A stretch of DNA of 35,687 bases from a virus, in IMG/VR virus record IMGVR_UViG_3300012928_000017, positions 1-35,687 of that record; one strand, 5' to 3'. Under the pieces are notes generated by a model. That model was not told where the DNA came from and ran no database searches. It saw only the letters and a list, made by a program, of their open reading frames with translations. Shown one piece after another: positions 1 to 35,180 of the stretch (positions are counted from its first letter, which is position 1; each line of letters begins with the position of its first letter). The translations under genes were made by a program, and so were the position numbers.

Positions 1-551
1 AATTCAGTTAATATTTGTGCCTTGTTACAACCTTTTTCAAATATATCAATACCTGTTTCCCCACCTACGTCTGCTTGTAGATTTGGAAACTTTTCGTTGA
101 ATGCTTTTGCAATTTGTTCTCTTTCTTTACTTTTACAATCGTAGTAATAATATTGTTTGCGTTCTTCTTGATTTGCATTACGTCCTACAACACTAAAATT
201 ACACATGCCTGTTCTATCTTCAAAATGTAAACCTGTGCGTAATTCAAAAGGACTATGTTCTAATTTAAAATTTAGCCATTGTTTAGCATCGATAGGCAAC
301 TCCCAATTACTATAATATAATTCTTTGTCTCTTACCCAACGACTATTACCACTGCAATTATATACTCGCATACATGCATCGTATATTTCTTGTCCTATTT
401 GTTCTATAGTTTTATTTCTGTCACTGCCCGTAACTAAAAATACTCTATGTGAATAACAAAAATTTAAAAACTCTTTGTAAAAGTTTGGATCTATTGAACC
501 TCTGCTAGGTGTTAATGTTCCGTCAACATCAAATATATAATCATGTATCAT
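1..551 (-). CDS. Eukaryotic-type phosphomannomutase (HAD family), 3' end cut off by window edge
   Basis: Partial gene: 183 codons are visible from ATG at 551 and it continues past base 1. The protein looks like the PMM1/PMM2-type phosphomannomutase, which interconverts mannose-6-phosphate and mannose-1-phosphate for GDP-mannose synthesis. Visible signatures are FDVDGTLTPSRG (residues 7-18, with nucleophile Asp8 and acid/base Asp10 of the HAD motif I), TGSDRNKTIEQIG (41-53, motif II), RTGMCNFSVVGRNANQEER (113-131, the cap-domain sugar-phosphate binding stretch with its arginines) and GGETGIDIFEKGCNK (163-177). I compared these from memory with human PMM2 (FDVDGTLT, GMLNVSPIGRSCSQEER, GGQISFDVFPDGWDK). 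The start overlaps the end of the upstream gene by 11 nt, so the two are probably translationally coupled. Likely role: sugar-nucleotide supply for glycan or DNA modification; this is inference. The C-terminal HAD motifs (GDKTMPGGND in PMM2) lie outside the window. Confidence 0.85.
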   Translation of the reverse strand, partial: MIHDYIFDVDGTLTPSRGSIDPNFYKEFLNFCYSHRVFLVTGSDRNKTIEQIGQEIYDACMRVYNCSGNSRWVRDKELYYSNWELPIDAKQWLNFKLEHSPFELRTGLHFEDRTGMCNFSVVGRNANQEERKQYYYYDCKSKEREQIAKAFNEKFPNLQADVGGETGIDIFEKGCNKAQILTE

Positions 552-900
552 CAATATCTAAATCAATCAACTTATGCACTTTTCTGCTTTTGCGTAACTT
601 CTGATATTCAGCATGATACTCATTTGTTGCTTCAAAGTAACGTGATATAATTTCCTCTAAGAATGGTTGAAGTTCTACTTCAATTGGATTGTTGTAAATG
701 TCTAATAAGACTGCTTTATTTTGTTCTTGGTCGATTAAAACTTTTACAAAAGATATTAGTGTTTGAGATATTTCAAATGTACCACCATTAATGCTATAGT
801 TTAATAGTGTTTGTACTTTCGCTTTTAAATTATTGTGCTGTATGTTTAGTGTAGTACGATAATTCGCGAACTCGAGTGCTTTTGTTAGTTTAGACGACAT
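541..900 (-). CDS. Conserved phage protein of unknown function (119 aa)
   Basis: This small soluble protein has a heptad-like N-terminal half and a charged C-terminus rich in Lys/Arg followed by an acidic end (LIDLDIDDT). I see no membrane segment, signal peptide or catalytic motif. The string EATNEYHAEYQKLRKSRKV (residues about 90-108) resembles small hypothetical proteins of marine T4-like phages as I remember them, but I cannot name a function. It is the first gene after the terminator of the fibre operon and has its own late-promoter-like AATAAATA 6 nt before its ATG. No Shine-Dalgarno sequence is present. It overlaps the phosphomannomutase gene by 11 nt (541-551), so the two form a small operon. 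Confidence 0.75.
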   Translation of the reverse strand: MSSKLTKALEFANYRTTLNIQHNNLKAKVQTLLNYSINGGTFEISQTLISFVKVLIDQEQNKAVLLDIYNNPIEVELQPFLEEIISRYFEATNEYHAEYQKLRKSRKVHKLIDLDIDDT

Positions 901-906
901 ATTACA

Positions 907-914
907 TATTTATT
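907..914 (-). promoter_or_regulatory. Late-promoter-like AATAAATA for the 900-to-1 unit
   Basis: On the minus strand AATAAATA matches the NATAAATA form of T4-like late promoters. It lies between the terminator (925-949) and the ATG at 900, with 6 nt between core and ATG, so transcription would start within about 1 nt of the start codon. It lacks the upstream dyad seen at the three GATAAATA promoters in this window; the terminator occupies that position instead. Confidence 0.5.
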
Positions 915-920
915 TGCCAT

Positions 921-949
921 AAAAAAAGCCAGTTACTTGAACTGGCTTT
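921..949 (-). terminator. Intrinsic terminator closing the fibre-pqqA operon
   Basis: Perfect 10-bp inverted repeat AAAGCCAGTT (925-934) / AACTGGCTTT (940-949) with a 5-nt loop. Read on the minus strand it is followed by a run of seven T (complement of 921-927), the classic Rho-independent form. It begins 4 nt after the pqqA stop codon. Only the minus strand has the uninterrupted T tract. Confidence 0.92.
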
Positions 950-953
950 AAAT

Positions 954-1025
954 TTAAACACTCTTTACATACATTGTGATTTCAAATCCTAAACGTATGT
1001 TTTCGTACGTTGGTTTAGTCCACAT
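954..1025 (-). CDS. pqqA: PqqA-like peptide: precursor of the redox cofactor PQQ (23 aa)
   Basis: A 23-codon gene reads [19 protein letters not shown] followed by VKSV and TAA. PqqA is the ribosomally made precursor peptide of pyrroloquinoline quinone: PqqE, with PqqD as chaperone, cross-links its conserved Glu and Tyr, and the rest is removed by proteolysis. The defining Glu-x-x-x-Tyr core is present as Glu15-Ile-Thr-Met-Tyr19, preceded by the usual Gly-Phe/Met. The N-terminal Met-Trp-x-Lys-Pro is also typical of bacterial PqqA (for example Klebsiella MWKKPAF). Translation support is strong: AGAGGAGA (complement of 1032-1039) lies 6 nt before the ATG. The gene follows the 1059-2108 fibre gene in the same direction and ends just before the terminator, so it is the last gene of a late operon. 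No pqqB, C, D or E is visible here, so modification would depend on host enzymes or genes outside the window. Confidence 0.87.
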
Positions 1026-1029
1026 ATAT

Positions 1030-1048
1030 CGTCTCCTCTGTTGAGACG
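1030..1048 (-). promoter_or_regulatory. RNA hairpin overlapping the pqqA ribosome binding site
   Basis: On the minus strand CGTCTC (complement of 1043-1048) and GAGACG (complement of 1030-1035) form a perfect 6-bp stem with a 7-nt loop. The Shine-Dalgarno GAGGAG is split between loop and 3' stem arm, so folding would partly hide it. In T4, late genes such as e and soc are held silent in early transcripts by similar hairpins; applying this here is inference. Confidence 0.45.
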
Positions 1049-1058
1049 TCCGTGTCTA

Positions 1059-2108
1059 TTATAATCCGCTTGTTTGACTAAAAGTAGGAGCAGTTACAAC
1101 AACACCGTTGTTTGCTCTTTTAGTTTGTATTGTACTTGTGATTGTTCCATCTACACCATCAACGTATCCGTCACTATCATCTGCGTTACCGTCAATACCG
1201 TCAGGACCAAGACCATCACCTAATGCGTGGTCATCTCTCATTGTTACTTTGAAAGTTACAACTGTTGGATCAGTTGTGCTGTTTACTTTACCTTCTATTT
1301 TGTAATAGTTACTTGCATAACTACCTGAACCATATTTAATATATAGTTGCTGATAAGATGTTGATAATTCATAGAAGCCTTTACTTGCACTTGTTCCTGT
1401 TGAACCAGAACTTGTTAAGTTGTTTAAGTTAAATGTTAATGTACCCATAGCACTTAATAAGTTAGTCCAGTTTGTGTTTTGAGAACCAATTGTTCCTGCA
1501 CTACTTCCTGATGTACCACCACTTCTTGAACCTGTAAATAATACTTCACCACCAGAGTTGAAAAATCCTCTAGCATGTGCTTCATTACTAAATGTTAATG
1601 TAAATTCATGTGTGATTTCTGGAGTTGATGAACTTCCCCAACCTGTTGTTCTTGAATCTGAACCTGCGGCATCTGTAGTTAAACTACTTCCTGGAATACT
1701 AAATCTACCATCAAATAAACTTTTGACATCATTCATTAAGTTATTCCAATCACTTGCTGTAATAGAATCACCTGCTGATTTATCTGTGCTACTTGAGGAA
1801 AATAAACTTACACCTGTAAATGTTGCTAAAGCCTGTGCTTCGTCCTGTAAGTTTTTGTATCCGTTATCTGTGCTACTTGCATTAATAACTTCACCTGTTG
1901 CGGCATCTAAACTACCAGTAGACTGGTTGTAACCATATGTGCTACTTGCTGTGTATGTACCTAATGTAACATCTGCTGGTGTGCCAAGTTGTCTATAAAC
2001 ATTAGCAACCATGTTATCATAATCTGCTGGTGCAACACTATCTGTACTTGCAACAACTTGTGTCATGTTAGTACCACCTGATACTGTTAATGAACTTCCT
2101 GATGCCAT
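1059..2108 (-). CDS. Tail-fibre-like virion structural protein (349 aa)
   Basis: A Ser/Thr/Gly-rich, beta-structure-type protein. Its composition and the segment FSNEAHARGFFNSGGEVLF (about residues 172-190) recall structural and fibre proteins of marine cyanophages and pelagiphages. An Asp/Gly-rich stretch (about residues 298-321, DGLGPDGIDGNADDSDGYVD...) looks like a calcium-binding loop cluster, though no full EF-hand or dockerin is evident. The closing VDGTITSTIQTKRANNGVVV motif recurs in such fibres. The start is supported by an AGGAG about 8 nt before the ATG at 2108. It is third in the unit C operon, between a larger fibre-like protein and pqqA. Likely role: distal fibre or host recognition; exact assignment unknown. 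Confidence 0.7.
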   Translation of the reverse strand: MASGSSLTVSGGTNMTQVVASTDSVAPADYDNMVANVYRQLGTPADVTLGTYTASSTYGYNQSTGSLDAATGEVINASSTDNGYKNLQDEAQALATFTGVSLFSSSSTDKSAGDSITASDWNNLMNDVKSLFDGRFSIPGSSLTTDAAGSDSRTTGWGSSSTPEITHEFTLTFSNEAHARGFFNSGGEVLFTGSRSGGTSGSSAGTIGSQNTNWTNLLSAMGTLTFNLNNLTSSGSTGTSASKGFYELSTSYQQLYIKYGSGSYASNYYKIEGKVNSTTDPTVVTFKVTMRDDHALGDGLGPDGIDGNADDSDGYVDGVDGTITSTIQTKRANNGVVVTAPTFSQTSGL

Positions 2109-2139: not shown

Positions 2140-3984
2140 CTATTTAATACCTATTACTGCTTCAATGACTCCTTGGTCACCGTCTTCTTTATCTTCTAAA
2201 CTTCTACCAATAATTGCTTTGATGTCTACATCTTCGTCTGCTACACCCCAAGCAACTCCAGGTACGTCACTAGATACTAGTCTTTCACCTTTAGCAACTT
2301 TACCAATTACTTTAACAGGAACCCTTCCTGCTAATGCTACTGGTTGTCCTTGTGCTTCACTGTTCATTAAGTATGCTGGATTACTTGATATAACACCAAA
2401 CACATCAACATCTGCATGTTCTAATGTTTGTGTTATTTCTTTTTCGCCACCAATCTTAATAACTGTGCCTGGCTCATACTCTACGTCTGAGGAATAAATC
2501 TCAGCCATATCCGCATACTGGGCCTGTGTTGCAATACCATTAAAGTATGTACCGCCAACGTTACCTGTGAACGTTGCACTTGTACCATTAATTACTGCAA
2601 TATTACTTGTACCTGTTAGTTCTGCTTTAACACCATCAAACGTTGATGCAAATACTGTAGCAAAGCCTGTAGTTGCATTACCAATTGTTTGTGAGTTGTT
2701 AGCCGCTAATGTTGTACCTAAAGTTTTGTTTGTTAAAGTTTGAGCAGTATTTTCTTGTGCTACAACACCATCCGCTGGATTTAAAACTGTTGTACCACCA
2801 CTGTTTACAATGTTACCATATAGACCAGCACTTGTAAAATGGAATGTGCCTGAAGCAACATTACTAATAAATGCTGTGTCGATTGGTGCTCCACTTGTAC
2901 CAAAACTTTCTACATTAAGTCCGCTAATACCACCGCCGTTTGCTAGTGTAATATTTGTAGCATAAATGTTATCGATAGGAGCCGCACTCTCACCAATATC
3001 TAATACTACGTTTGATCCTGCTTTCTTAATGTATTGTGCCGCATTTGAACTTGCGTCACCTATTTGAATTGTGTCAATGAACAATGTTGAGAATCTTTGG
3101 TCAACGTTACCAATTGTAACTGAGTCAGTTGTGTCTGGTATTAATGCTGTTGAACCACTTCTAAATATTGTGTTAGCACTATATTCAGAACCACTTACAT
3201 AAATTGCATTAGCCTTGTCGGCGAATGTTGCCACGTTTGCCAATGCAACCGCTGTACCGGCATATTTCTTTCTCAAGTTCATACCTGGCTTAATACTTGT
3301 ACCTATACCATCTGTTGCGTCATTAAATTCGTTGTATAAAGATACATCGCCTAACTCTTCAACTCTTACAGCAACGTTTTGGTTAACTGTAAATGTGGAA
3401 TGGTCACTGAATATAGCCATTACTGTTTCACCGTTTGTGAAACCTGCTGTTCCTGTTCCGTCACTTACATACATTAATGCAAGTACGGCTCTGTATGCTC
3501 CAGTATCATCTGGAATATACATTGTTCTTAATCTTGTACCATATTTGGTTGGTGAACCAATTGAACTCTCACTGGAGTATTGGTTATTAACTTCACCTGC
3601 ATAACTGGCTTCAACAAATGCTGTGCCGTTATGTATTTTTAATTTGTCATCTCTTGTGTCGTAATAAGTTGTGCCTGATGCTACGCCGCCTGTAGGAGCA
3701 GTTGCACTAACTGTTGGACTCATTCTTCGCCATCCTGAGCCGTCATATACTCTCATAACTGACTCGTTTTTATCGTACCAAATTTGTCCTGTTAATAGAA
3801 CTGAATCACTTGGTGCTGATGTACTGGCAAAGTTTTCTAAATGTCTGATTGAGTTTTGAACAAAATATTGTCCATAACCTGAAACGTTTCTACCTACCAG
3901 TGCAACTGAAAACGAGGAGTTAACCTGACTTGCGGCTACGTTAATGGTTCTAGAACCATCTGTATTTTGTACTGAATATGTCAT
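2140..3984 (-). CDS. Tail-fibre-like protein with conserved C-terminal fibre domain (614 aa)
   Basis: The N-terminal region (about residues 30-110, including RHLENFAS and GQIWYDKNESVMRVYDGSGW) is of the kind that anchors phage fibres. The centre is a long Asn/Thr/Gly-rich repeat-like region. The C-terminus from about residue 490 (QYADMAEIYSSDVEYEPGTV, then DVFGVISSNPAYLMNSEA and VALAGRVPVKVIGKV) is a domain seen at the ends of many T4-like cyanophage fibre proteins. It also resembles intramolecular-chaperone-type end domains, but I see no proof of self-cleavage. The ATG at 3984 has AGAGGAAA upstream. It is second in unit C, so most likely a fibre or fibre-tip component acting in adsorption. 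Confidence 0.72.
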   Translation of the reverse strand: MTYSVQNTDGSRTINVAASQVNSSFSVALVGRNVSGYGQYFVQNSIRHLENFASTSAPSDSVLLTGQIWYDKNESVMRVYDGSGWRRMSPTVSATAPTGGVASGTTYYDTRDDKLKIHNGTAFVEASYAGEVNNQYSSESSIGSPTKYGTRLRTMYIPDDTGAYRAVLALMYVSDGTGTAGFTNGETVMAIFSDHSTFTVNQNVAVRVEELGDVSLYNEFNDATDGIGTSIKPGMNLRKKYAGTAVALANVATFADKANAIYVSGSEYSANTIFRSGSTALIPDTTDSVTIGNVDQRFSTLFIDTIQIGDASSNAAQYIKKAGSNVVLDIGESAAPIDNIYATNITLANGGGISGLNVESFGTSGAPIDTAFISNVASGTFHFTSAGLYGNIVNSGGTTVLNPADGVVAQENTAQTLTNKTLGTTLAANNSQTIGNATTGFATVFASTFDGVKAELTGTSNIAVINGTSATFTGNVGGTYFNGIATQAQYADMAEIYSSDVEYEPGTVIKIGGEKEITQTLEHADVDVFGVISSNPAYLMNSEAQGQPVALAGRVPVKVIGKVAKGERLVSSDVPGVAWGVADEDVDIKAIIGRSLEDKEDGDQGVIEAVIGIK

Positions 3985-3999
3985 TCTTAATTTCCTCTA

Positions 4000-4614
4000 T
4001 TAATTTAACTGCACTCTCACAGTATATATTATTTCTATAGTTCTGTTTGCACTCTTTTGAACTGGGTGAAATATCACATGCGTAAGCATAGTACTGTCAT
4101 TTGGATCAGTAGCATAACTTAACAATCCTAATTCATCAAAAACGTATAACCCTTCGTTAGTTGTACTAGTATCAAAAGTGTCTTGTGCTGAAGGTTCGTT
4201 ATAACCTAATGTACAAGTAATTTTTAAATCTGTATAACTAGCACCAGGGATAATTTCAATTTTATCTGTTGCTGTATTGTTACTTATTACTTTCTGATAT
4301 GTTCTACTATATAGTGTTGCACTATTCTCATAGGCTTCACTTACTCTTGGTGCTTTGTAAATTACTTTACCAGCAGAGTCAACTGATGTTGCTCCATTAC
4401 CAAAAGCCATATAGTGAATGTAAGCACCGGAAGTATTTGTAAGAGCATTTGCTATCATATTCGCCATGTTACCATAGTGAATAGCATTTCTCTTGTTTAC
4501 AAGTTCCTCTTTAGTTTCTGCATCTCTAATTAAAATATGCCCCGACATCTTGATGCCGGCTTTATCGTCCACTTTAGATTCTTCTTTTTCCGGTTTGTCT
4601 ATGCTTTCGTTCAT
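4000..4614 (-). CDS. Conserved T4-like marine phage structural protein, function unknown (204 aa)
   Basis: A charged N-terminus (residues 1-20, Glu/Lys/Asp-rich) is followed by SGHILIRDAETKEELVNKRN, then IHYGNMANMIANAL and IHYMAFGNGAT. I remember this arrangement from small virion proteins next to fibre genes in marine T4-like phages. No enzyme motif is present. The reading frame extends to a GTG at 4629, but that GTG lies next to the late promoter core GATAAATA (4620-4627) and would not be on the transcript, so the ATG at 4614 is the better start. There is no Shine-Dalgarno sequence, and the promoter lies only 5 nt before the ATG. It is the first gene of unit C. Baseplate- or fibre-attachment role is a guess from position. 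Confidence 0.72.
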   Translation of the reverse strand: MNESIDKPEKEESKVDDKAGIKMSGHILIRDAETKEELVNKRNAIHYGNMANMIANALTNTSGAYIHYMAFGNGATSVDSAGKVIYKAPRVSEAYENSATLYSRTYQKVISNNTATDKIEIIPGASYTDLKITCTLGYNEPSAQDTFDTSTTNEGLYVFDELGLLSYATDPNDSTMLTHVIFHPVQKSANRTIEIIYTVRVQLN

Positions 4615-4619
4615 GTTGT

Positions 4620-4651
4620 TATTTATCACTTTTTGTTAAAATATGTTTTAA
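4620..4651 (-). promoter_or_regulatory. Extended late promoter for the fibre-pqqA operon
   Basis: Minus strand, in order: TTAAAA, 4 nt, TTTTAA (4636-4651), 8 nt, then GATAAATA (4620-4627), 5 nt, ATG at 4614. The core matches T4-like late promoters (TATAAATA, -13 to -6). The dyad would cover about -37 to -22 and has exactly the same spacing as at 26744-26775. If the start is 6 nt past the core as in T4, transcription begins on the A of ATG. Confidence 0.7.
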
Positions 4652-4654
4652 TTC

Positions 4655-7600
4655 TTAATCGAAATTCTGCAAGAAGTCGATAATACTACTGTTCGCTTGT
4701 AAAACTGTACCTTTATCTGTTAAACTTATTGCGTCCTTAAGTCCTTGTTCACCTGAATCCCAACCTGTTGATTCATCAACATCGTGTGCTAATACAGTTC
4801 CGTCTGCAAATTCTGTTGTAACTGAACCTGTGCCATCCCAACTAGCATCATAGCCTTGATATCTCACATTAGCACCGCCACTTAAATCATCGTATGTAAT
4901 ACCATAAGCAGTGAAACTACCACTTAGGTCCCAATTCTCATCAAGTGGGATTTGGTTATTGTAAATTTCTACTGGTTTAATCCAGTTGTAATCTTCCGGA
5001 TCACGTACTAGTGTTCCGTCAGTATTTCTTAATCTTATGTTTTCTGTTTCCTCACCGTTGTATATTCCTGCACCACTTTGTATAAGTGTGTTAGGTGTAG
5101 TACCTTTAGTACCTCTGTATATACCTGTAAGTTTATTGTTTACGGTGTCTCTAACTTCGTATTCTATTCTTTCGCCTTGTATCCATATTACAGCACGTTT
5201 AATACTACTTGCTTCTGGTAGTTTACTTGCATCTGTTACAAGTATTTCATTTTCCCAAATATTTAATACGTCTGTTGTAGTTGTTAGTGCTTCTACGTTA
5301 CGTCTATAATATTCTGTATTACCAAATAAATCAGCAAACATAATATATCTAGTGTCTGTACTTACATCACTAATTTGTGTATTACCTTGTGTAGTAACAT
5401 CAAATATTAATGTTTCTAAAGGTTGTACAACTGCAAGTTCTTCAGGTCTGTCTGGACCATATGTTGCTTTACTAAATGTTACACCATCAAATCCGTATAT
5501 AGTTTCGTCATCACGTCTGAAGTTTACATTACCTTGTGTTGTTTCATTGAACACACCTACATAGTTGTCTACTTCAACTTCTCTATCATACATTCCACTA
5601 TCCCATGCATAAGTATCAAACCCTCTGGTGTCTGTGTAGAAGTATGTTGAATGTTGTCCTGGAACTTCATCTTTAAATGTACTTGCATCAATAGTTTCGC
5701 CTTGGAATGTAGCATGTACTTTACTTTTAACTAAGTCTGTTGCAACTTTTAAATTACCATTGTCAATAAGACTTGTTATAATGCTAACGTTTTGCATTAT
5801 GTTTGCATTTGCACTAGCACCAGTACCGTATATTGTATCTACAACTGATGTAATGTTGCTTCTAACATCCGGATCAAACTTCCAAATTCTTTCTGCGGCA
5901 CTCCAGTTTGGACTTCTCACGTTTGCAATATTGGCATTACTGTTTGCTTCAATGTTTACAATGTTAGTTGCAATACTTACATTTAATGTTTCTAATGAAG
6001 GATCAAAACCGTCAAAGTATTTTAATTCAATCTTATCACCATTTGCAGGAGTACCTACTGCTGGATTAAGACTCATATCATTTTCAAATGTTAAGAAGTT
6101 GTTAGTAGTATCCAATGTATAGTTTGTTACAGTTGTGCTATTACCTGTGCTTGTTTGAGGTATAAGTCTGTTGTTTACAAACACTTGCAGTCTATTTGTA
6201 TCTTCTACTTTAATATCAAAACTAAATCCGTTAGTAGCACCATCACCAATTAGTGTTTGTGTTTTACCACCACTGCTGTTTTTAAACATATCTGATTTAG
6301 TTCTATCAAATACAATTTGTGTATTTGCAGTTCTTATTGCGGCATTACTACTAATAAATCCAGCATATTGTTTATCAGAATCTCTAATAGTTACATCAGC
6401 AGGAACACTATCTTCTAATATTCTAACTGTCTTATTTGTTTCATCATAATAAGGAGGTCTATCAAAGTCTGTTGTACTACCTATTAAGTTTTCAATAGGT
6501 GTTTGTTTGATATCACTGTAGTTTCTAATTTTACTACTGTAAGGTTTAACTTCATTAAAGTATTGTATTGCTTTATCAAAGTTATCAACTTTAAATCCTT
6601 TAAATGGTATAAGGTCTGTTTCACGTTTAACAATCTTCAAGTAAGTTGTTTTAAATGCCCAATCAAGTTCGCCTTGTTCTGCGTATGCATGTTTAAGCAT
6701 CTTGAAGAAAAACTTGTTCCAATATTCACTGTATGTTCCTGTAAATACATTTCTATACAATGCATTTAGTATTCCTCTAATCTCTTGTCCTAATGTTAAA
6801 GTTTGACCATCTTCCCAAACTGAATCTGCAAATTTAACTGTTTGGTCTTCCATAGCAATTAGTTTGAATGAGTTATCTTTTTTGCTGTACTCGTATAAAC
6901 TATATTTTGATGTTGAATCTTTTTGTACTTGTATAATACTTTTATCCAATACATTTTGTAGTATTTGGAATTGTTTTGTGTCAGTTACTTTTCTTAATGG
7001 TTTGTAACTGTCATCATAATAAATTTTTCTATTAGTTGTAGCATCAGTTCTCAACAACTCATACCAATCTGTTGTAATCAAATGTGGTGTACTTGTTGGC
7101 AAGTTATCTCTCCAATCAATAAATGTAGAGTCCATTTTTAATTCTGCAAAAGTTTCATTTAATGCTTCTTGCATTTGTTTTCTTGCATTTTTAATATTTG
7201 AGAACATTGTTTGTCTTGGTCTAAACTTGGAACCAAAACGTTCTGCTGAACTTAATCCTTTAGCAGGCACAACTTCGTTTATAGCATTGTAACCTGCTAA
7301 ACTATCTATAAGTTTGACACTTAAATTATCTGGTATAGTAATATCTGTATCACCTTCACCTGCAAGACTCCAACTAGTGTGTTTTTCACTTGCTTCTGTT
7401 TCTCTACGTTTGAAGTTAATACTTAATACACTATCTTCTGTTCTGATTAAACTACCCAATGTGTTTACAACTGCACCGTCTGGACTAATTAATCCTAAGT
7501 AAGGTACACGTTGACTTTCTGGGTTTGCTAATAATCTTTCTAAATCTCTAATACTACGACCTTTACCAGCATTACTTCTAGCCATGTCGCTGACTTCTGT

Positions 7601-10600
7601 TAAGCCTTGTACCCAATAGTAGTAATATGTTTGTGGTCTTCCGTCTTGGTCTTTTCCTCTTACTTCAGATAAGAATATATTATTAGGCACACCTTCGCCA
7701 TCATACAACTCTGGTGGATTAGTACTTTCCACCCACTCATATATGTTTATTTCACTACCAGGGAATAAGTTACCCCAATTCAATGCACGTTCTTGGTTAT
7801 TGTATCCTAAAGTACTGTATGTACCTGCACCTTGCTCGTACCATTCATATCTCATCTGGCTTGTATCTAACCATCTTCTACCAACTTGCTTACTACCCCA
7901 TTCTTGTTTGACAGGATCATATATACAAGGATCTATATCACTCTTGAAGTCTATTTCTTTATCTATGAATCCTGGTATAACACCTTTGAATGGATCATGG
8001 ATATCTATATCAAATTCTTTTTCTGCACTTTCATCATCATATGTAAATACATCAGTTAAAAACTTACTGTCAATTAATTTTTCTTGATGTCTAATAACTG
8101 TATTACTTTCTAAGTATGCCCAACCATTTGCATCATAGTTGTCAACCCAAACATTTGCCATAGTGGCTATGTTTGCCGGAGGAGTACTGTATCTTAAACT
8201 ATCTAATTTAAGTGTTGTAACATTTTTTTGATCCTTGCCTACTAAGTTTGTGCTGTTACCAAATATATCTATCAAGTCATATTGATATAATGCGCCGTCC
8301 ATTCTGTTTGCTAATTTGTTGTTAGCCATATCAACATTAAAGTCACCACCATCAGGCGATGTAAATCTTAATCCTGTACCATCTCCATTAGGACCGCCTC
8401 CCATTCCTGTATCTGCTAAATCAACTTCTAATGGATTATCTCTGGTGTATGCACCACCGTACATACCTATATCATCTAGTAATCCTGGATTTAATTCATC
8501 ACCAAACTCTAATCCATCTAAGTTTGGAGCATCAATAACTAGTCCTGGATTTCCATCGTCATCATCTTCAATACTTGCATTCCACAACGGTAATCCATCT
8601 GGTCCGTATGGAGCCCATTTGTTCAAGTTGTCTGCAAATTGTTCTGCATCGGAGATTGGTCCAATAGCACCTTCTGGAATACCTAAGTCATTTAATGCAT
8701 TACCTTTTTGCGAACAGTCAGGTAATGCTCTTGATGTTAAGAATACTCTAGCACCTCTACCTTGTCCTTTACCGCCATGTGGTGGTCTATTTTTTGCTTC
8801 ACCAATTTTTGTATTTGATTTAGATTTTACTTGAGTTGGATCATGTACTTCTCTGTTTACATGATAATCTAAAGGCACACCTTGGTCAAGGTCACTTGGG
8901 AATTGTTCATATATTCCTCTATCTATAACTCTTAAATCTACAATACCACCTTGGTCGTCTACTTCTGTAACAACAAATACTGCAGGTTTTTCAATGTGCA
9001 TGTCGTCACTATCAAATTGTAATACTGGAACTACAACTGCTCCTCTACCACCACCTTTAACTGTGATTGTAGGAGCACTCTTCTTAAAGTACAGTCCACT
9101 TTCTAATTCGCCTTTTGCGTTTTTAAACATTGGTATCATACCTGCACCAGGAACTCCTCCTGGTAACACATCACCATATGTTGGAGAACTTTTATCTGTG
9201 TCAACATTAACACCTTTAAGTCCACCGTTTTCATCAAATCCTAATTCACCAGGATTATATCTAAACGGTATTGATGTAGCATCCGGAGAATTAATTAATA
9301 GTTCTACTCCACCTGCTTCATAACCTTCACCTGCATTAACAATTCTTAATGCTACAACTCCTGTTCTTATTGTTTCTGATTCGCTAGTTGGTGTACCACC
9401 TACTAGTCTTAATACGTCACCAGGTTTATAATCTTGTCCTTTGCTTTCACATAAACTTGCAAGTTTTCCTATTCTTCTATTTTCTTCTGCTGTTCTACCT
9501 GGAGACTTTTTATACTTAGGTACACCTGTAACTCTTTGGAAAGCACCTGCCGTACTTGCATCAAACGGAGCGGCATTTACACCGTTAAGCATAAACGACC
9601 TTGCTTTACTTCTTGTACTTTCTACAACTTGTGAATCTGGATCTGGGTGGAAACAGTTTTGTTGGTCACGTTGTACTGAATAATCTAATACTTGTCTTAA
9701 CACGCCACCTTTACAACCATTTCTCACAATCATTTGGTCTCTGACAATGTTCTGTATATTAATACATTTTTCGCCTGACTTGTTGTGGTCTATTGCTACA
9801 TGAACTTCGTCACCTGCTTGAGCTCTAATCTCATCTGCAATAACTTTCATGTCTGTACTTCCGCTCAATGTAATGCTCTTACCATTTATTGTGAATGAGT
9901 CACCTTTACCAACCGGGAATGTATTACCACAAATTTTGTGTCTCGGTTTAGGAGGACATACTGGAACTTGTACTGGAGGTTGTGCAACATACTTGCCATT
10001 AAATTTAGTTAATGGCGTAACACTAACATAAGGTGTACATATTTTACCACCCATAACAGGTTTGCCACCAGGATTACTTGTACCTGACGAACCAGCCGGA
10101 GGAGCAGTTGTTGTTGTGTTAATTGGAGGAATGTTGAATGATATTCCTGCTACACCACCGCCACCATAGTTTACAAACCCTGCACCTTGATTACTGTATG
10201 AACCTACACTTGGTGCAACTGTAGGTGTTGATTTTACAGAGACTGATTTTAAAGTCGATATTTTAGGAATATTAATTTTAGGCATATTGTTAAGATTAAA
10301 TCCACCAATATTGTTTAGTGCTGACATGCCTCCTAAACTACCACCATTAGGTCCATAACCAAAATGTCCAATAGCCGGTATGGCTGAAAAATTAAAAAAT
10401 GAACTCATGTTTATTGTTTTTGGCTTAGGTGTAAGTGGTGGTTTCGCAACAACTGGCGGACTAGGTACTTGACAACCTGTTCCTGGTATGCCTGGTCCTT
10501 GTACACTTTGTCCATATGCACTAGACACTTGTGATTTATCCACAGGATAATTCATGCTGTATTGATATGCTATACTTCTTTTTGGATGTTTATCAAGTAC

Positions 10601-13600
10601 TGTTGTAATATATCTACCATTGTCTGAATTATATACCCATGTAAATTTACCTGTGTAATAAACAAAACCATTCCCCAATGATCCAGTTGATGCCGCTTTT
10701 GTATGAGCCGCACCTGCTTTGGCAAAATCTTTACTTTCTTGCGATGTAAGTTGACTAAAGTTTCTTGTACTTGCAACTAGTCTACCTCTTGAATGAGGTG
10801 AACTACTTTGATATACTTCTAATCTGTCCTGGGCACTATACATATTGAATAACATCTTAATTGTATAGTCTGCTCCATTGAAACCTGTAAATGTATATTT
10901 TTTAGTTTCTGTTTGTCCTGTCTTACCACTGTATGTTACAAAGTCATTGATAAAGTAAATATCAGGCTTTGGAGGTGGTGGAGGAGGAGGTGGAGGAGGT
11001 GGAGGACAATCTGTTCTCTTCTTCTGACCAATTTTTATATCTGCATTAATTGTTGCAAAGTCCACTGGAGGAACAACTGCAAACTGATCCTTATATTTTT
11101 TCTGTCCTGTAGGATTATTTGTAACAAATTTTGTAGGTGTTGTATATGCTGGTGGTGGAGCCGCCGGCGGTGTATTAGCCGGTTGCCTGGTGTTACTAAC
11201 TTTATTATTTGTAGGACTTGTATTTGCAATAGTAGTTGATGTACTACTTGTTGCAGGGCTCGATGTTGTTTTACCCATAATACTTGAAGCATTAAATATT
11301 GACGTTGGAAAATTTAAGCCTAAACCGCTACTACCAAACAATGGAGGAACTATTGGCAAACTACCAGGTATCAAGTTTGGATTAATTAGATTTTTTGGTG
11401 TGTTGTATGGCATTTTCTTAAATGTTCCGCCATTTCTTTTAACAGCACCAGGCCCAAACAAAGGCAGTCCCATTGTGAATGAGCCTGAATTAATAACAGC
11501 ACCTGCTTTTGCAATAAGTTGTCTTTCAATTTCATCTTTATATTCGTCCATATTCAAATATGGGAAAGCATTTACAACAACGTTTGCACCGTTGATTCTA
11601 ATTTTACCTTCGTGGTCATCTACAAAGAATGTAACTCTTTCTTGTTCTACTATTGTGTTGGCAAGTTGTATATCAATGTTTGCACTTGGTGTTGTCTTTA
11701 ATGCAACATTACCAAATTGTAAGAAATCTTTTTTGCTTATATATTCGTCACCACTATCAACATATGGATGATCCAATGCATAACCTTCTACATAAATTGT
11801 GTTTGCTGTTGGTACACCTGTAACTTGGAAAGTATAGTTATAGTACTCAGGCTCGTAATTATAAATTCTAATGTTTTCACCTATTACAGTTTGTACGTTT
11901 CCTGAAGAATCTAATTCATAACCATGATCCTCTGCTGTTGTAATCTCTATTGTGTTACCTACAAATGTTGCATTACCTAATAAATCTTCTGTAATAGTAA
12001 CTGTTGCACCAGATGTAATTGCAATATTACTTGCTAACGTAACATTAGCAGTTCCATTTACTGTTTCAATTTTAGTTGCAACATTACCACCTGTTACAAT
12101 CATTCCTGAACGTAATTGTGTATTTCCTGTTGTAAGCAATAATACATTACTGTCTGTTAATGTGCTACTTGCAGTATCATTGATGGTCATGTCTCCTGTG
12201 TACACTCCATCTATCTTAATTGTTTTATTTCCTGTATTAAAATCTCGTACAGTATTCAAGTCTGAATACTTGCCAATGTTATTAAGTTTAATTGTTTGGA
12301 AAGTACTCAACCCTGTTATTGTTGCATCTGTAGTAATGCTTGTTGCATCTTGTACAACAAAACTAATATTATTTGCATTTGCTGTAATATCACCTTTTGG
12401 AATATCAAAAGATGTAATTGTTTTTTCACCTTCTACAACAACTGTTGTACTTGGTGTTTCTCTAACAAATTCTAATGTTTCTCCTGCACTTAATGTTACA
12501 GGATTATCTAATGTTACTTTTACGACTCTGTTATCATCTACAATTTTTGTAGCAGTAAATGATACATCTTCGTCTATTGTAATTGTAGAGTCTAATGTAA
12601 TTGTGTTGTTGTCCACAATACTTGCAATAGTTCTTTCACCATCTATAGCAGGGTATCCTGTGTTGTCTATTACCATGCCTACTTCCATACCAGCAGTTGT
12701 CTCAACATTTACTGTAGCACTTGCTACTGTAATTGCATCTGTAACAAAACCTACTATGGAAGTGTTTTTATTAAATTCTACACTTTTAATTTTAAATAGT
12801 TTTGGATCAACACCAGTTGCTTTTAGTCCTAAGCCTGAATCTAATTGTGTTGTTAATCCGTTGTTTAATTCTATAGTTCTTCTATTTGTAACACCAGCCG
12901 CCAAACTGTCAGTCCATATTGTTTCACTTTCATATGTTAAACTTGTTGTTTGTTGTGGCTCAATGTATTCTGTTCTTATATTTGATATTTGGAAAACATT
13001 TCCATTCATGTTTCCGCCTGCAGGATCTGTAACAGAAATAAATGCACCAGGTATTAAATTAGCAGAACTAATTTTATCTAATACTTCTGTGCTTACTGTA
13101 ACAGTATCACTAACTAGTCCCATTGTTTGAGTGCTGTCAGTTACATCTAATGTTGTGTTACCACTTGCTACACCTTCAACGAAGAATGTGTTTAATGTAA
13201 CATCTGTTGGTGTAAATGCTGTACCTTGTGCTTTACCTAAATTATGTCCAGAAAACTTAATTGTTTCATCACCTGTGTAACCATGTTTCTCAGAAAATAT
13301 TTGTACGTTGTAAGTACCTGTGCTATTTGCTGTTGAAGTTGTACCATAGTTTGCAAAACTTAAATTTGCTTTAGGTATTGTTGAAGCAATACCATTTAAT
13401 ACAGTACTGTTAGCATACAATACAATTTCTTTAAATTGTGCATTAACACTTGCAACTTGGAAAACATTTGCGTTTAAGTTACTTGAACTTGTATCATTAA
13501 ATTTTAGATAGTGTCCTACTTTAACACCGTCAATGTCACCTTGTTTAATTCTAAATGCTGGTGTACCATTAAAGTTATATGTGCTAGTATCTGCTGTTAC

Positions 13601-16600
13601 ATTTCTGTAAATATCCAATGTTTGTGTTGTAGGTGCCAATACTGCATTAGCATTAACACTTACGTTACTAAATGAATCATATGTTACGTTAGTGATATTA
13701 CCACTTAACACTGGTTTAATTTTTGTAATGTCTTTAATGTTCGCAGTATTATATGCTACATTACCAATAGTAACTGCTTCGTCAAATATTCTTTGTTCAT
13801 TACCCCAAGCAACAACTTCTTTAGTTGTTTCTGGTATTGTTGTATCGTAAAACTTCTCACCATCTTGATATACTAATTCTGCAACGTTTGAATCTAATGA
13901 TGCATTTCCTTTTAGTACTAATATATTATCGTAGGTTGCAGTATGGTCATAGTTTGCATCTACATTACCACCATCATTAAAGTCTAATGCAACGTCTGTT
14001 AATTGTATATCAGTAAATAATTTTAGTGTTCCTGTTTCACTACTGTTTTCAATATAAGAAACATTACCACCAACTTTAGTTAATCTATAAACGTCAAACT
14101 CACCGTGTTCACTTTTTGCAAAATGAACTATATCATTTTCCAATGGTATTTCACTTGCACGTCTTGTTGTTCTATCAAACAATTCATCAAATCGTGCTAT
14201 GTCAAATGCTTGATATCCTACATTATATTTGCTTATATAACCTGCGTTAGGTAACGGATTATAATCTTTATCTGTTATACCTGTATAATCTGCTTTTGTA
14301 GTTGTGGGCCATAAACCTTTTTCTGACATGTCAGTAGGTCTTACAATTAATCTGCTAGAGTCATCAACATCAATTAATATTGTTGAGTCTGACTGGTCAT
14401 CTGGTGTAATATCAAATGTTCTAACTTGTTGTAGTTTTGCCGCTAAGGCATCACTTGCCTCTACTTTAATATTTAGACTTGCACCTGGTAAGTCTCCTTG
14501 ATATGCATCTACAAAGTCTATAGTTGCTCTTTCATCAACAATAATTTCAGCATCAGCGGCTAAGTTACCACCTGGTAATGCTTGTACATTTGCAAAGTTA
14601 ATATATGAATTTGTTGTATCACCTGATATACTTGATATTGTGTATAATGGATTTGTAACTCTTTCTTCTAGTTTTTGCCCGTCGATGAATACATCAATGT
14701 GAGGATATGTTCCATCTATGATTGTTAAATTTTCTGTTGCTATGTTACCAGCATTTGACAGTTCATCAGTTCTACTTAACGGTGCAAACACATAACTTAT
14801 GTTACCACTACTTGCTAATGCATTGTTTACAATAGTTGTTCTACTACCTGAATCAAACTCCCAATCATTTCCTGTACCACCAACAACGTTTCCAACTGTT
14901 GCTGTGTCATTTACAGTAACACTTACATCTGAATAAGTTGTGCTGTTAGCACTTTCAAAACTAAATCTTTGTCTTGGCTGATATCTTTTTGCTTCTACGT
15001 CTAAGTTTGCTAAACCACTACCAGCAAGTGTAAAGTCAGATCCTCTAATTGTAATTACATAGTTTTCTGATGTTGCATTTGCTATACGTTGTGAACTTGC
15101 TGTAATTAAACTGTTACCACTTGCTACACCAATGTTTGCTGTAATAGTTGGGTCTAATGGCACATTTGCCATCGTTGTGTTAATAGCACTTACAACATTA
15201 GCAACCATTTGTGCATTTGTGGCACTACCACTTGCTACTGTTGATAAGTCAATAGTAGTTGGATAATGACTTGAATTTGCATGGTGGTCTGTAATTGTAA
15301 TGTTAGCAACACCTGTTAAGTCACCTGTATTTGTAATGTATGTATTACTTGTAGCATACGGTTGTAAATAACTTGTACTAATATTTGCTGTTAATAACTG
15401 TGCCGCAATAACTGTTACAGCCGGATTAGTTGTATAACCGTATCCTGGCTCTGTAACATCTACTGTTGTAATTGTTCCGTCTTGTCCTATATTAACTGTT
15501 GCTAATGCAGTTGTTCCTCCACCGTATGAGAAACTTCCTGGAATCTCTGCAGGTGGTGGTTCAATTTCTAAGAAAGGTCTTTGGAAGAATTTAGTTGTTC
15601 TGTCTAGTACTTCAACTTCCTTAACTTTACTTACTGTATTTTCAGGATAAGCAATTTGAATAAGTTGTTTTTCATTTTTAACTTCTGCTTCATTAACTTT
15701 AATATCTAAACTTTGTTGATTTTCTGTATCACCAAATTCTCCAAGTTTTAATGCCCATTCATCATATACATTAACACTACCTGGTACTAAAACTTTATCA
15801 CTGTTTAACAAAATCTTTAATGCATTTTGTGTACCCTTACTTCTAATCATACCCATATAAAAATCATATTGGTCATCTTGTGTAAGTTCAAATTCTCTTA
15901 AATATTTTCTTTCTTGATATCCGTATTGTCTTCTACTTGCTTCATATAATTGTTTTTGTACAGGCACATGTCCAATTTCATTGTATTTGCCCATATCACT
16001 TGCAAGTGTATCAAAGTTAGGCAATAGTTCTTCGCCTTGTATAATAAATCCATCTGCTGACAATGTTCCGTTCCAACCAGCAGTACGTTTGGATTTAATT
16101 TTTAATCTTGCTTGTCTTTGATTCAACAAGTTGTCATAAATTGTATCACCAAAAATAGTTTTGTTCGATACTAATATGCTATGTTCTATTTCATTAGTGT
16201 AAAGTAATGCACCATACAGTTGTTTAGTTGGGTGTGCTATTGTAACCTCAGGACCATCTCTTGTGATGTCACATTCAGTTGCACTAATCATTTTGCCTTC
16301 TTCATCAAGCAAACTGAATTGTCCTTGGTCAATATCTTTTATGGCACTTACTTTTCCTCTTGGAGCAACAAATTTAATTTTACTTGCTAATGGACTTAGG
16401 TTAATTGTATTACCTGCACTCCATTTACCTATACTCCAGAATAAAAATTGTTTACCTGAATATACCCAGTCATTTACATCTGCAATCTCATCATTGTATT
16501 CGCCAAAGTCATAACCATATGCTTTTTGTAATCTTCCTAAACTTATAAGGAAGTCATATACTTCTGCTACAGTATCATATTCTGTACCGTACTCTACTCT

Positions 16601-19600
16601 TACAGTTTGTCCTGTGCCTTGTAAAAATAATGTTGCTTCTGCACCACCTACTGTAGGCAATGTACTTAAACGTTGCCATATTGCAGTATTAGTTACATTA
16701 CTTCCTGCAGGAGCAACTGCTTTTGCTCTAAAGAAGTTGTAACCACTTTTAATAATGGAACCTTCATTGTATTGTGTATTAACATTATATGCAACGGTTT
16801 CAATTGGTTCACCACCAACTTTAACTTGTGTTTTTGGTCCGTTTACATCACTAGTTTCTATTTCAAAATATTTTTTAGTACTGTTGTAACCAAATACTTT
16901 GTATTTGTTATTTGCTGTTAATTGTACTAATACACCTGTATAATCATTTGTAGATGCATAAGGACCTACATGTACATCAACTTGTAAATCTTCTTGTGGT
17001 AAAATCAAACTAGAACTATTACCAGTTGTGCTATAGTTGTCACTGAACACAGTCATAGTATCTTTGTCTACAAATCCAGCCATCTTATGACCTAACTTAC
17101 TGTTAATAGTTTTGTAAGGCTTACTAAATTCTTCTACAGGATTTAATCCTTGGAATCTAATATATGGATCTATAAATGTTGACCAACCAGTGTTAGTTTG
17201 CATTAAATTGTTTGTATCTACAGAACCATGTAGTGTAGCATTTTTAACTTTGTAACGTTTATAATTTGTATTATCTAATAATTGGTTGGTGTTTGCAGAA
17301 GCCCGAGTTATTTTCCCTGGCTCTGCAAACACACTGGCAAACTTACCGGGCTTGGTAAGTAAAAGGGCCTCTGCTATTGCAAAGGGATATGCTTCAGAAA
17401 TTTTCCATGCGTTTTCAACTGGCGCACCATCTCCAAATTTCCAATTCTTATTTGTTAGTGATGTATCAACACTAAAGGTTGTATTCAATGCACTTGTTAA
17501 TTTATAATTTTCTGTACCGCTAACATGTGTTGCTGTACCTGTAGCATTTGTACTTAAACTTGTAGGTGTAAAGAAAAACTTAGGGCCTACTGTAAATGGA
17601 TATGCTGGATTTCCATCTGCATCTAATGTTGCTACATAATATCTTGTTCCTGTTGGAAACTCTGGTGTTACACCATAACGTGAATTAAATTCATCGAGGT
17701 CTCCTGTTGAAGCACTATATTCATAATCTTCAACAAACTCTCCTGTTGGTGCACCACCTATTGTTGTTCTTGTTGTTGTTTTTAAACTGTAACTACTTTC
17801 TAATCTTTTTATTGCACTAGTGTTGTCTAATCTGTCGGTATAACCATATGGACCATAAATTGGTAATCCATCAAATGCCCAACCAACAATTGGTGAATGA
17901 CTGTCTGTTGCCCAACTTGTTAGTCCAACTGTTTGTGGACTAGGTTGTACATAACCATAGCAATCGTAACTATCAACATATCCACCAGCACTATCCATAC
18001 TCACATCATTTCTATATTGACGTGAGTATGTGAATGAGTTGCTCAGTGAATGTGCGTTGCCTGTATTAGCATTAAATATTTTTGCTCCATTTACAGCAAT
18101 ACCAACTGGTGTACTACTTGTTGAAGTAGCATTGGCAAAATCACCTGCTGTACTGTCGCCTGTGTTAATAGTAATTGTGTAAGTTAATTCTTTATCCCCT
18201 AATTCGTTTACATTATCGTCAGTTGGGAAAGTACCAATAGTGTGATTAATAATATTGTTTGTTGTAATATTAATGTTTGCACCACTGTCTACTTCTTGTA
18301 CACTTAATCCATCTACACTTGTTAAGAATGTGTTAGCATTTGCTGTTGCAGTTCCTGTAGTTGTTTCTACATAATCAATAGTTTTTGTAGTTGCTGTTGT
18401 GCTAATAATATTTGCAGGTGCAATTAAATTACCTTGTGCATCTACAGGTATCTCAAATTTTAATCCAATTCTTCTATACGGATTATTTTTTCTATATCTA
18501 TTATTTGTTACGTTTTCTCTAGCACCTTGTCTAATAATACCTTCTTCTAAATCTTTCCACATAGGTGTATTAGCACTACTATAATCTGGGTATGTTGTTG
18601 TGATATATTGAGTATCCCACCAACTAGGCTTTCTCACAAAGCCTAACATTTCCCATGGATGAGTATGAGGTCTTTCTGTGTCGTAACAACTTTCAAATAT
18701 ACCTCTCCAGTATCCAGGTTTTACTGTGCCACTGTTATAGTTCCAAGTGAATAAATTGCTGGAGTCATAATATTCATTAACAACAAAGTCTACATCATTT
18801 CTTGTAATGAATTGATTAAAATTACTTCTTAGTAAATTATAATATGTTGTTCTAGTTAAACCTGTGTCAGTTCTAAAACGTCCTGGTCTAATTGAATAAA
18901 TGTTTAAATCATATTGACTATCTTTTTGTCTATAGTCTGCTAATATACCATTCCAAATTCTGTTTTCAAATTCTAATAAAACAAAATCATGTATATCATC
19001 TGCGGCAACTGTTTTACTGCCATCGTGTCCTACAATAACTTTAATAGGCTCTATAAAACTATTGTCTGTAATAATCTCTGGTTGTGTTGCTGGATATAAT
19101 CCCATAGCACTTGGTGTAGGTGGAGTTTGTGTACTCTCCCTATTTGAATCATACATTCTAAATTTGAATGTATTTCCAAGTGTCATTGTGAAACTATCTG
19201 TAAATGTAACAGTATTAGCAGTAGTTGTACTTGATACTGTATAATCTTTTTCAGCAACTAATAATTTTTCTATACCGTCCTGTCCAATTTCATACACATA
19301 TAATGTGTTTTCAAGTTTGGATAAATCTTTATATGTTTCTAATGTGTATGCTTTTTGTAATACATTGTTTACTACAACAACTTGTTCTTCGTATTTGTCG
19401 CCAAATGCCGCCATGTAAGTATAATCAAAAACATTTTTTCCTTGATTAAAACTTATAACACCTTCTAGTACAAGTTCTAATATTTCACCGTAACTTTTAC
19501 CTGTTGTATCATTGTTGTCAATGAATTTTATAATTTCTTTTTTAAGTCTGTTCTTATATTTTACATATTCGTTGCTGTTAAATTCTAATGCATCTCTGAT

Positions 19601-34310: not shown

Positions 34311-35180
34311 ATGACACAACCAAGAAGAGTCAACTATCTTAATAACAAAGACATACTAAAAGAGATACACAAAAGTAAACTAACATACTGTTATGTACAG
34401 GATGATAAGTTTGCAAATGTAGATTTAATAGTAGAATCTGTTAAAAAAATTAACAAAACAGCAATTAAACAAGCACAAGAAAATCGTGCTTCTAAAATGC
34501 AAACTGAAGCATATCAGAAATCCATTGCAGAAGGCAATTGGACTAAAAAGCCTAAACAGAAAGACTTTGCAGTAGATCCAAAATCTATTCCTGTAGATGA
34601 ATTAGTATTTAGAGTTATGACGTATGACCATATACCAGATGAGATTGGTCGTAAGAAAACTACTAAAACTATTGCAGATACAAAAGCAAAAGTAAACTTT
34701 CCACCATTCAAACATTACATCTTAGACAGTAAAGGTATTAATCCTAGAGAAGTTGTAAGAAGTCACTGGGTAGGTGGACTACATAACGGACACTTTTCAG
34801 TTGACCACGGAAAGATTACAAATGAATTAGGCAAAATGTTTATGAAGTTAGTAGAACGTTATAGTCAAAGAGGTAACTGGAGAGGTTACACTTATGTAGA
34901 TGAAATGCGTGGTACTGCTTTAGTGCAATTGGCACAGATTGGATTGCAATTTAATGAAGCAAAATCAGATAATCCGTTTGCTTATTATACTGCTACTGTT
35001 AATAACAGTTTTACTAGAGTATTAAATTTAGAAAAACGTAACCAAACAATAAGAGACGATATATTAATTGAACAAGGACACTTACCAAGTTATGGTAGGC
35101 AGATTCAACATGAAAATGAACTCAAGGCAATGAGAGAATCCGCTGAAAATGAATTGGAAAATAATCCTGGTAACGAGTAA
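34311..35180 (+). CDS. gp55: Late-transcription sigma factor gp55 with a large N-terminal-half insertion (289 aa)
   Basis: gp55 replaces host sigma-70 on RNA polymerase to read phage late promoters. Homology to T4 gp55 is visible at two places: RVNYLNNKDILKEI (residues 6-19; T4 YNYVNNKELLQAI) and NWRGYTYVDEMRGTALVQLA (189-208) with FNEAKSDNPFAYYTATVNNS (214-233) and FTRVLNLEKRNQ (T4 GYTQSWKQEM..., [30 protein letters not shown]). T4 gp55 is 185 residues; here about 130 extra residues lie between the two homologous parts (about 22-152). This extra part is Lys-rich and I do not recognise it. The C-terminus is acidic but lacks the hydrophobic SLDFLYE-type clamp-binding motif of T4. It has a strong promoter and GAGGAG 5 nt before the ATG. 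Confidence 0.88.
   Translation: MTQPRRVNYLNNKDILKEIHKSKLTYCYVQDDKFANVDLIVESVKKINKTAIKQAQENRASKMQTEAYQKSIAEGNWTKKPKQKDFAVDPKSIPVDELVFRVMTYDHIPDEIGRKKTTKTIADTKAKVNFPPFKHYILDSKGINPREVVRSHWVGGLHNGHFSVDHGKITNELGKMFMKLVERYSQRGNWRGYTYVDEMRGTALVQLAQIGLQFNEAKSDNPFAYYTATVNNSFTRVLNLEKRNQTIRDDILIEQGHLPSYGRQIQHENELKAMRESAENELENNPGNE

Follow-up and report, generated by a model that had tools for sequence, protein, structure and literature searches.

A probable substrate-only auxiliary metabolic gene, pqqA, at the tail-fibre operon of a marine jumbo myovirus

The stretch of DNA analyzed here (the window) is a virus contig of 35,687 bases, a 35.7-kb fragment that encodes a baseplate wedge protein (gp53), a gp5-like hub/lysozyme, tail-fibre-like proteins and a T4-type late sigma factor (table 1). 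The sigma factor was 77% identical to that of a 340-kb relative (G055), its nearest counterparts belong to jumbo phages, PA5oct among them, and IMG/VR contigs with the same flanking genes reached 340-524 kb. Because of these baseplate, tail and sigma genes, the jumbo-phage-like sigma factor and the size of the relatives, the window is assigned to a T4-like jumbo myovirus, of which it is a fragment. The sigma factor also points to late-gene control. A single 5752-codon ORF with a YHYH domain (17 kb, 4655-21913) likely encodes a giant tail or adhesin protein, and a HAD-IIB-like hydrolase, scoring under its family cut-off, was seen at the contig edge (3-554).

Table 1. Features at and around the pqqA locus, numbered along the whole window
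Feature	Position	Strand	Evidence or remark
Downstream gene, 119 aa, synteny anchor	541..900	minus	265 viral relatives
Late-promoter-like AATAAATA of next gene (541-900)	907..914	minus	pattern scan
Intrinsic terminator of tail-fibre operon	925..949	minus	stem-loop and T run; terminator scan; now also ends pqqA
pqqA	954..1025	minus	23 codons, 72-base ORF; translation, PF08042, TIGR02107
Possible hairpin CGTCTC-N7-GAGACG	1030..1048	minus	covers half of ribosome binding site; weak
Shine-Dalgarno GAGGAGA of pqqA	1032..1038	minus	read from sequence; ~7 bases before ATG
Gene directly upstream of pqqA	1059..2108	minus	ORF; last gene of late tail-fibre operon in relatives
Tail-fibre-like protein	2140..3984	minus	phrog_19602 tail fiber protein, E 8.4e-11
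First gene of late operon	4000..4629	minus	phrog_11259, E 1.5e-61
T4-type late-promoter-like GATAAATA	4620..4627	minus	pattern scan; nearest upstream of pqqA, own strand
T4-type late sigma factor	34311..35180	plus	phrog_12791, E 1.4e-93

A sequence-only reading of the window had placed here a short gene for PqqA, the precursor peptide of the cofactor PQQ, with a good ribosome binding site. That reading was supported in part: both the gene and its Shine-Dalgarno sequence were confirmed with exact coordinates, and the strand, which had been left unstated, is the minus strand. The peptide matched PF08042 over the full profile (1-19; 40 bits, E 3.6e-10; curated cut-off 21.1 bits) and the NCBIfam equivalog model TIGR02107 (45 bits, E 6.6e-12; cut-off 20 bits), passing both about twofold. 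A six-frame profile search recovered the gene at E 1.3e-10, and the same search gave zero matches in 14 control genomes. The length, WTKP start and GFExTxY core are those of the family, with Gly13, Phe14, Glu15 and Tyr19 all found and the cross-linking spacing E-x3-Y retained. The window copy differs from the family in lying on a phage, alone without pqqBCDE, and in ending in VKSV in place of FSNR-like tails. Sequence searches of PDB and PHROGs with the peptide gave no matches. A Shine-Dalgarno-like motif lay within 20 bases before the start in 117 of the 120 phage pqqA loci listed. Judged by these model scores, the ORF is an authentic PqqA, beyond chance. It shares its contig with structural and late sigma genes, and phage genes flank it on both sides, which rules out host contamination as its source.

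The homolog of the gene directly upstream adjoins that of the downstream anchor in nearly all close relatives, and the first gene of the operon has 97 confirmed viral relatives. The pattern scan detected five NATAAATA late-promoter-like sites in the window, every one at a gene start. Since the nearest upstream site of this kind on the same strand lies at 4627, pqqA is probably the final gene of the late tail-fibre operon. It is followed by the operon terminator and then by other phage genes; no canonical pqq operon (pqqA then pqqB-E) was found in the window, which is a fragment.

The terminator had been ascribed to pqqA itself, but in alignments 10 relatives without pqqA have this terminator in the equivalent position behind the tail-fibre gene; it is ancestral, older than pqqA. 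The neighbouring genes of these relatives show roughly 70-86% identity to those of the window, and the tail-fibre stop codon, the terminator and the late promoter of the next gene (retained as ATAAATA or TAAATA) all align, with the ~90 pqqA bases absent. Since the terminator is kept where pqqA is missing, the gene is an insertion of ~90 bases between a tail-fibre gene of the late operon and the pre-existing terminator.

The expectation that related phages would carry the same peptide at this locus failed. No PqqA motif was detected, within the DNA searched, in any of 170 loci retrieved via three neighbouring genes. When the records of 50 relatives, most of them fragments, were searched whole, only G055 (339,794 bases) was positive, and there pqqA, at 252,134, is a long way from the tail-fibre operon. 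The empty site in the 10 relatives marks the gene as accessory and not core, and because of this site and the G055 copy elsewhere pqqA is mobile cargo and not a trait of the locus.

Comparison of the window gene with phage or host copies gave pS of 0.58-1.02 and pN of 0.05-0.16. Because the search patterns fix some residues, a fair test of selection is confined to the codons that they leave free (positions 6-12 and 17), for which pN/pS was 0.35. R11, F14 and T17 never changed across 108 distinct sequences, although their codons did; E15 and Y19 were also invariant in these phage sequences, but both are required by the search pattern. These values indicate purifying selection on pqqA family-wide, and they hold for the family, since selection on this copy alone is not separable when no close relative has pqqA at the site. 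Many other phages thus conserve PqqA, with synonymous change dominant, which supports the sequence-only reading on this point.

The occurrence of pqqA at this site in this phage only, and its absence from 49 of the 50 relatives' records (most of them fragments), would also be compatible with a recently captured passenger that brings this phage no benefit. This explanation is unlikely, as synonymous change is near saturation in phage copies while the peptide is kept, unrelated phages hold pqqA in unrelated places (L392, Venkman; see below), and the ribosome binding site is good.

The RNA around the gene was also considered. A 121-nt stretch (window 940-1060, minus strand) was more stable than all 200 shuffles (z -3.3; single sequence), as would be expected if the conserved element were an RNA structure and the PqqA peptide incidental. 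However, substitutions in phage pqqA fall at synonymous sites with the peptide unchanged, a codon pattern that disfavours such an element; leader hairpins differ among phages, that of the window not being common to other phage pqqA leaders; and an Rfam search gave no match. A purely structural role is therefore scarcely credible. In the predicted fold of this single sequence, a stem brackets the gene and a hairpin lies at the ribosome binding site; 61 nt with the leader hairpin gave a z of -1.9.

A degenerate DNA pattern detected PqqA in at least 120 IMG/VR contigs, and the translations were short, clean PqqAs ending in stop codons; the window-subtype pattern matched 96 viral contigs. Among 50,697 annotated phage records only 12 matched, an identical set with three PqqA queries: nine Methylophilales phages, one spring metagenome podovirus and two records named "Acinetobacter phage". 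The nine, cultured on OM43/Methylophilales and of several kinds (P19250A, Venkman, MEP301, MEP401, MEP402 and four Melnitz), are a count of pqqA carriers only. In the true phages the locus was unannotated or carried a hypothetical protein called on the opposite strand, and was never annotated as pqqA; the gene goes unmentioned in the papers that describe MEP401/402 and Melnitz. The two "Acinetobacter phage" records were rejected as viral carriers: they hold bacterial DNA, at least one with a whole pqq operon. In CAKLQF020000010.1 (L004), titled Acinetobacter phage MD-2021a, a complete pqqABCDE operon occurs along with fur and polyphosphate kinase, which marks the record as bacterial DNA.

The peptides closest to that of the window were those of phages, with 18/18 core residues shared in L423 and L378, and 20/22 residues in L392. 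These contigs had no other detected gene in common with the window in the DNA searched. In L392, pqqA lies after a 251-aa ORF and directly before an SU10-type major capsid gene, and in Venkman it lies near recombination genes. Because the nearest peptides sit on such contigs, the data suggest transfer of pqqA among phages.

No pqqB-E homologs were found in the flanks of the viral pqqA loci searched, and a host control locus did match. PqqE was not detected above the cut-off in any of 39 records, nor was a PqqE-like match of any strength seen in 49 further virus records; these included the window and the 340-kb G055. PQQ alcohol dehydrogenase was likewise absent from all 28 pqqA-bearing viral records, whether above the cut-off or at E 0.001. 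Because no PqqE passed the cut-off in the records tested, the peptide would have to rely on host PqqBCDE, if any enzymes are used.

PqqA is itself a RiPP precursor, and the peptide could be the precursor of a different RiPP made by another maturase, a use that had been raised for it before. Three of the 39 records had weak radical-SAM matches (17-28 bits vs a cut-off of 381), and L130 has a SPASM-like radical SAM ORF ~1.5 kb upstream of pqqA. Against this, the 49 further records lack any PqqE-like match and the peptide keeps its PqqA equivalog score. With no PqqE-type maturase found alongside the peptide, a separate RiPP use received no support and is highly improbable.

In GTDB species genomes the window-type pattern matched 11 loci, although other hosts could be missed because the pattern was built from residues of the window itself. 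Eight of these belonged to Gammaproteobacteria (Pseudomonadales, Pseudohongiella and relatives), and in all eight pqqB comes after pqqA, as do pqqD, pqqE and pqqC where the contig extends far enough. The nearest cellular PqqAs share 15-17 of 18 core residues with the window and lie in pqqABDEC operons; the four C-terminal residues are VKSV in the window and FSNR in these hosts. From the peptide and the cargo of the relatives, a Pseudohongiella-type gammaproteobacterium is the probable host. The PQQ alcohol dehydrogenase model matched 24-49 times in each candidate host genome, and 2-4 matches per genome passed the strict cut-off. The idea that the host possesses pqqBCDE thus holds for the candidates, within the limits of a host assigned by inference. 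Two outcomes that would have spoken against the sequence-only reading, a peptide conserved in no other phage and a host without PQQ genes, were looked for, and neither was observed as far as that assignment allows.

"Marinimicrobia" was ruled out as a host. The contig PBPT01000016.1 (335 kb; G090 contig C57; L126, L338) has ORFs resembling PhoH, ThyX and a clamp loader, together with a T4-type late sigma gene that shares 57% identity with that of the window. It probably belongs to a jumbo phage and was mis-binned into a GTDB Marinimicrobia MAG. Another contig of this MAG, C77, also has a late sigma gene, which scored the same.

The altered C-terminal tail (VKSV vs FSNR) might suggest a decoy that occupies PqqD/PqqE, so that PQQ synthesis in the host is reduced or redirected. 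Yet Glu15, Tyr19 and their surroundings are kept, and a decoy would need neither residue; moreover, the hosts of the cultured carriers are methylotrophs and so depend on PQQ enzymes. A decoy is accordingly improbable.

PqqA is consumed at one peptide per PQQ, and PqqB-E are catalysts that are reused; a small gene could therefore keep PQQ synthesis alive. We consider it likely that pqqA is a substrate-only auxiliary metabolic gene of the jumbo myovirus, made late and topping up PQQ. Read-through of the tail-fibre operon would yield PqqA late in infection, and the peptide would enter the host machinery of PqqD/PqqE, PqqB, PqqC and a protease, in which Glu15 and Tyr19 would be joined to form PQQ. 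In this way 72 phage bases could sustain PQQ synthesis once host transcription drops, and the added cofactor would charge host periplasmic alcohol and sugar dehydrogenases, passing electrons into respiration to the presumed benefit of the phage.

Acetic acid bacteria make more PQQ when pqqA or pqqAB is overexpressed, though pqqA is not the only limit (PMC7936290). Work cited there gives a Gluconobacter ranking of single-gene overexpression, pqqB > pqqA > pqqD > pqqC > pqqE, in which pqqA helps but stands below pqqB; the earlier claim that PqqA is the limiting substrate is thus not supported.

Viral pqqA has already been reported (PMC7678222, PMC13188868), so the kind is known and the window copy is a new member of it. 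Lake Baikal virus VP_266, a putative methylotroph virus, likewise has pqqA on its genome, together with methanol dehydrogenase, and a boost to host PQQ was proposed (PMC7678222); the window differs in coming from a jumbo myovirus with a probable Pseudohongiella-type host and in having no PQQ dehydrogenase in the fragment. A 2026 survey of reservoir sediment contigs also placed viral pqqA, with pqqD and pqqE, among auxiliary metabolic genes (PMC13188868), but listed pqqA as phosphate-solubilising and did not analyze the peptide. The OM43 phages P19250A, Venkman, MEP301, MEP401, MEP402 and Melnitz share with the window a PqqA of the same family encoded alone, and have methylotroph hosts; they belong to other phage families and their pqqA is of the RFGFEVTMYVMNK-type subfamily. 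The link to lanthanide methanol dehydrogenases drawn earlier may fit these phages. As far as the literature was searched, the breadth of occurrence, the cultured OM43 isolates and the jumbo-phage cassette described below appear to be new.

Should this interpretation hold, phages would govern a redox cofactor through its peptide precursor alone, encoded in ~90 bases of DNA, and the supply of PQQ would be limiting in marine methylotrophs and related Gammaproteobacteria during infection. It would also mean that gene callers hid pqqA from virus surveys, the gene being unannotated or called on the wrong strand even in cultured phages. These cultured phages have laboratory hosts, e.g. OM43 strain H5P1 for Venkman and Melnitz, which opens the question to direct test.

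Viral contigs including G055 and L011 have the start of pqqA 16-144 bases beyond the gene of a secreted protein of 408 residues that contains a CxxCH haem motif, and a related CxxCH gene lies near pqqA in the 335-kb Marinimicrobia-binned contig. Relatives of this protein were found in 117 viral contigs, and pqqA was right behind the CxxCH gene in 19 of the 80 examined; the window fragment has no such gene. The structural model of the CxxCH protein was of low confidence (pLDDT 52), yet all of its top matches were to PHM and dopamine beta-hydroxylase (26 rows, Z 11.1-12.7, against 8.0 for the next unrelated structure), so that the protein is probably a cytochrome-c/copper monooxygenase fusion. 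The literature searched held no relevant account of such a viral copper monooxygenase, and this phage redox gene is little described. Candidate host genomes had 11-17 matches each to the protein, and these lay within 3 kb of PQQ dehydrogenases no more often than by chance (5 seen vs 4.4 expected); it is thus tied to PQQ by gene position only.

A broader scheme is offered tentatively, as a possibility somewhat short of an even one: unrelated phages of PQQ-dependent bacteria may repeatedly have taken only the consumable substrate of the pathway, and some jumbo phages may join pqqA to a secreted cytochrome-c/copper monooxygenase (PHM-fold) gene pair as a phage-borne module for periplasmic oxidation centred on PQQ.

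Secreted CxxCH proteins of jumbo phages, often paired, were observed at L426:4001-5224, L313:9202-11770 and L126:4632-5930. Two genes from pqqA in the 340-kb relative, a protein combining CHASE2 with an adenylate/guanylate cyclase is encoded (L313:6450-8522), and the pqqA-bearing contig L074 encodes a protein 37% identical to it.
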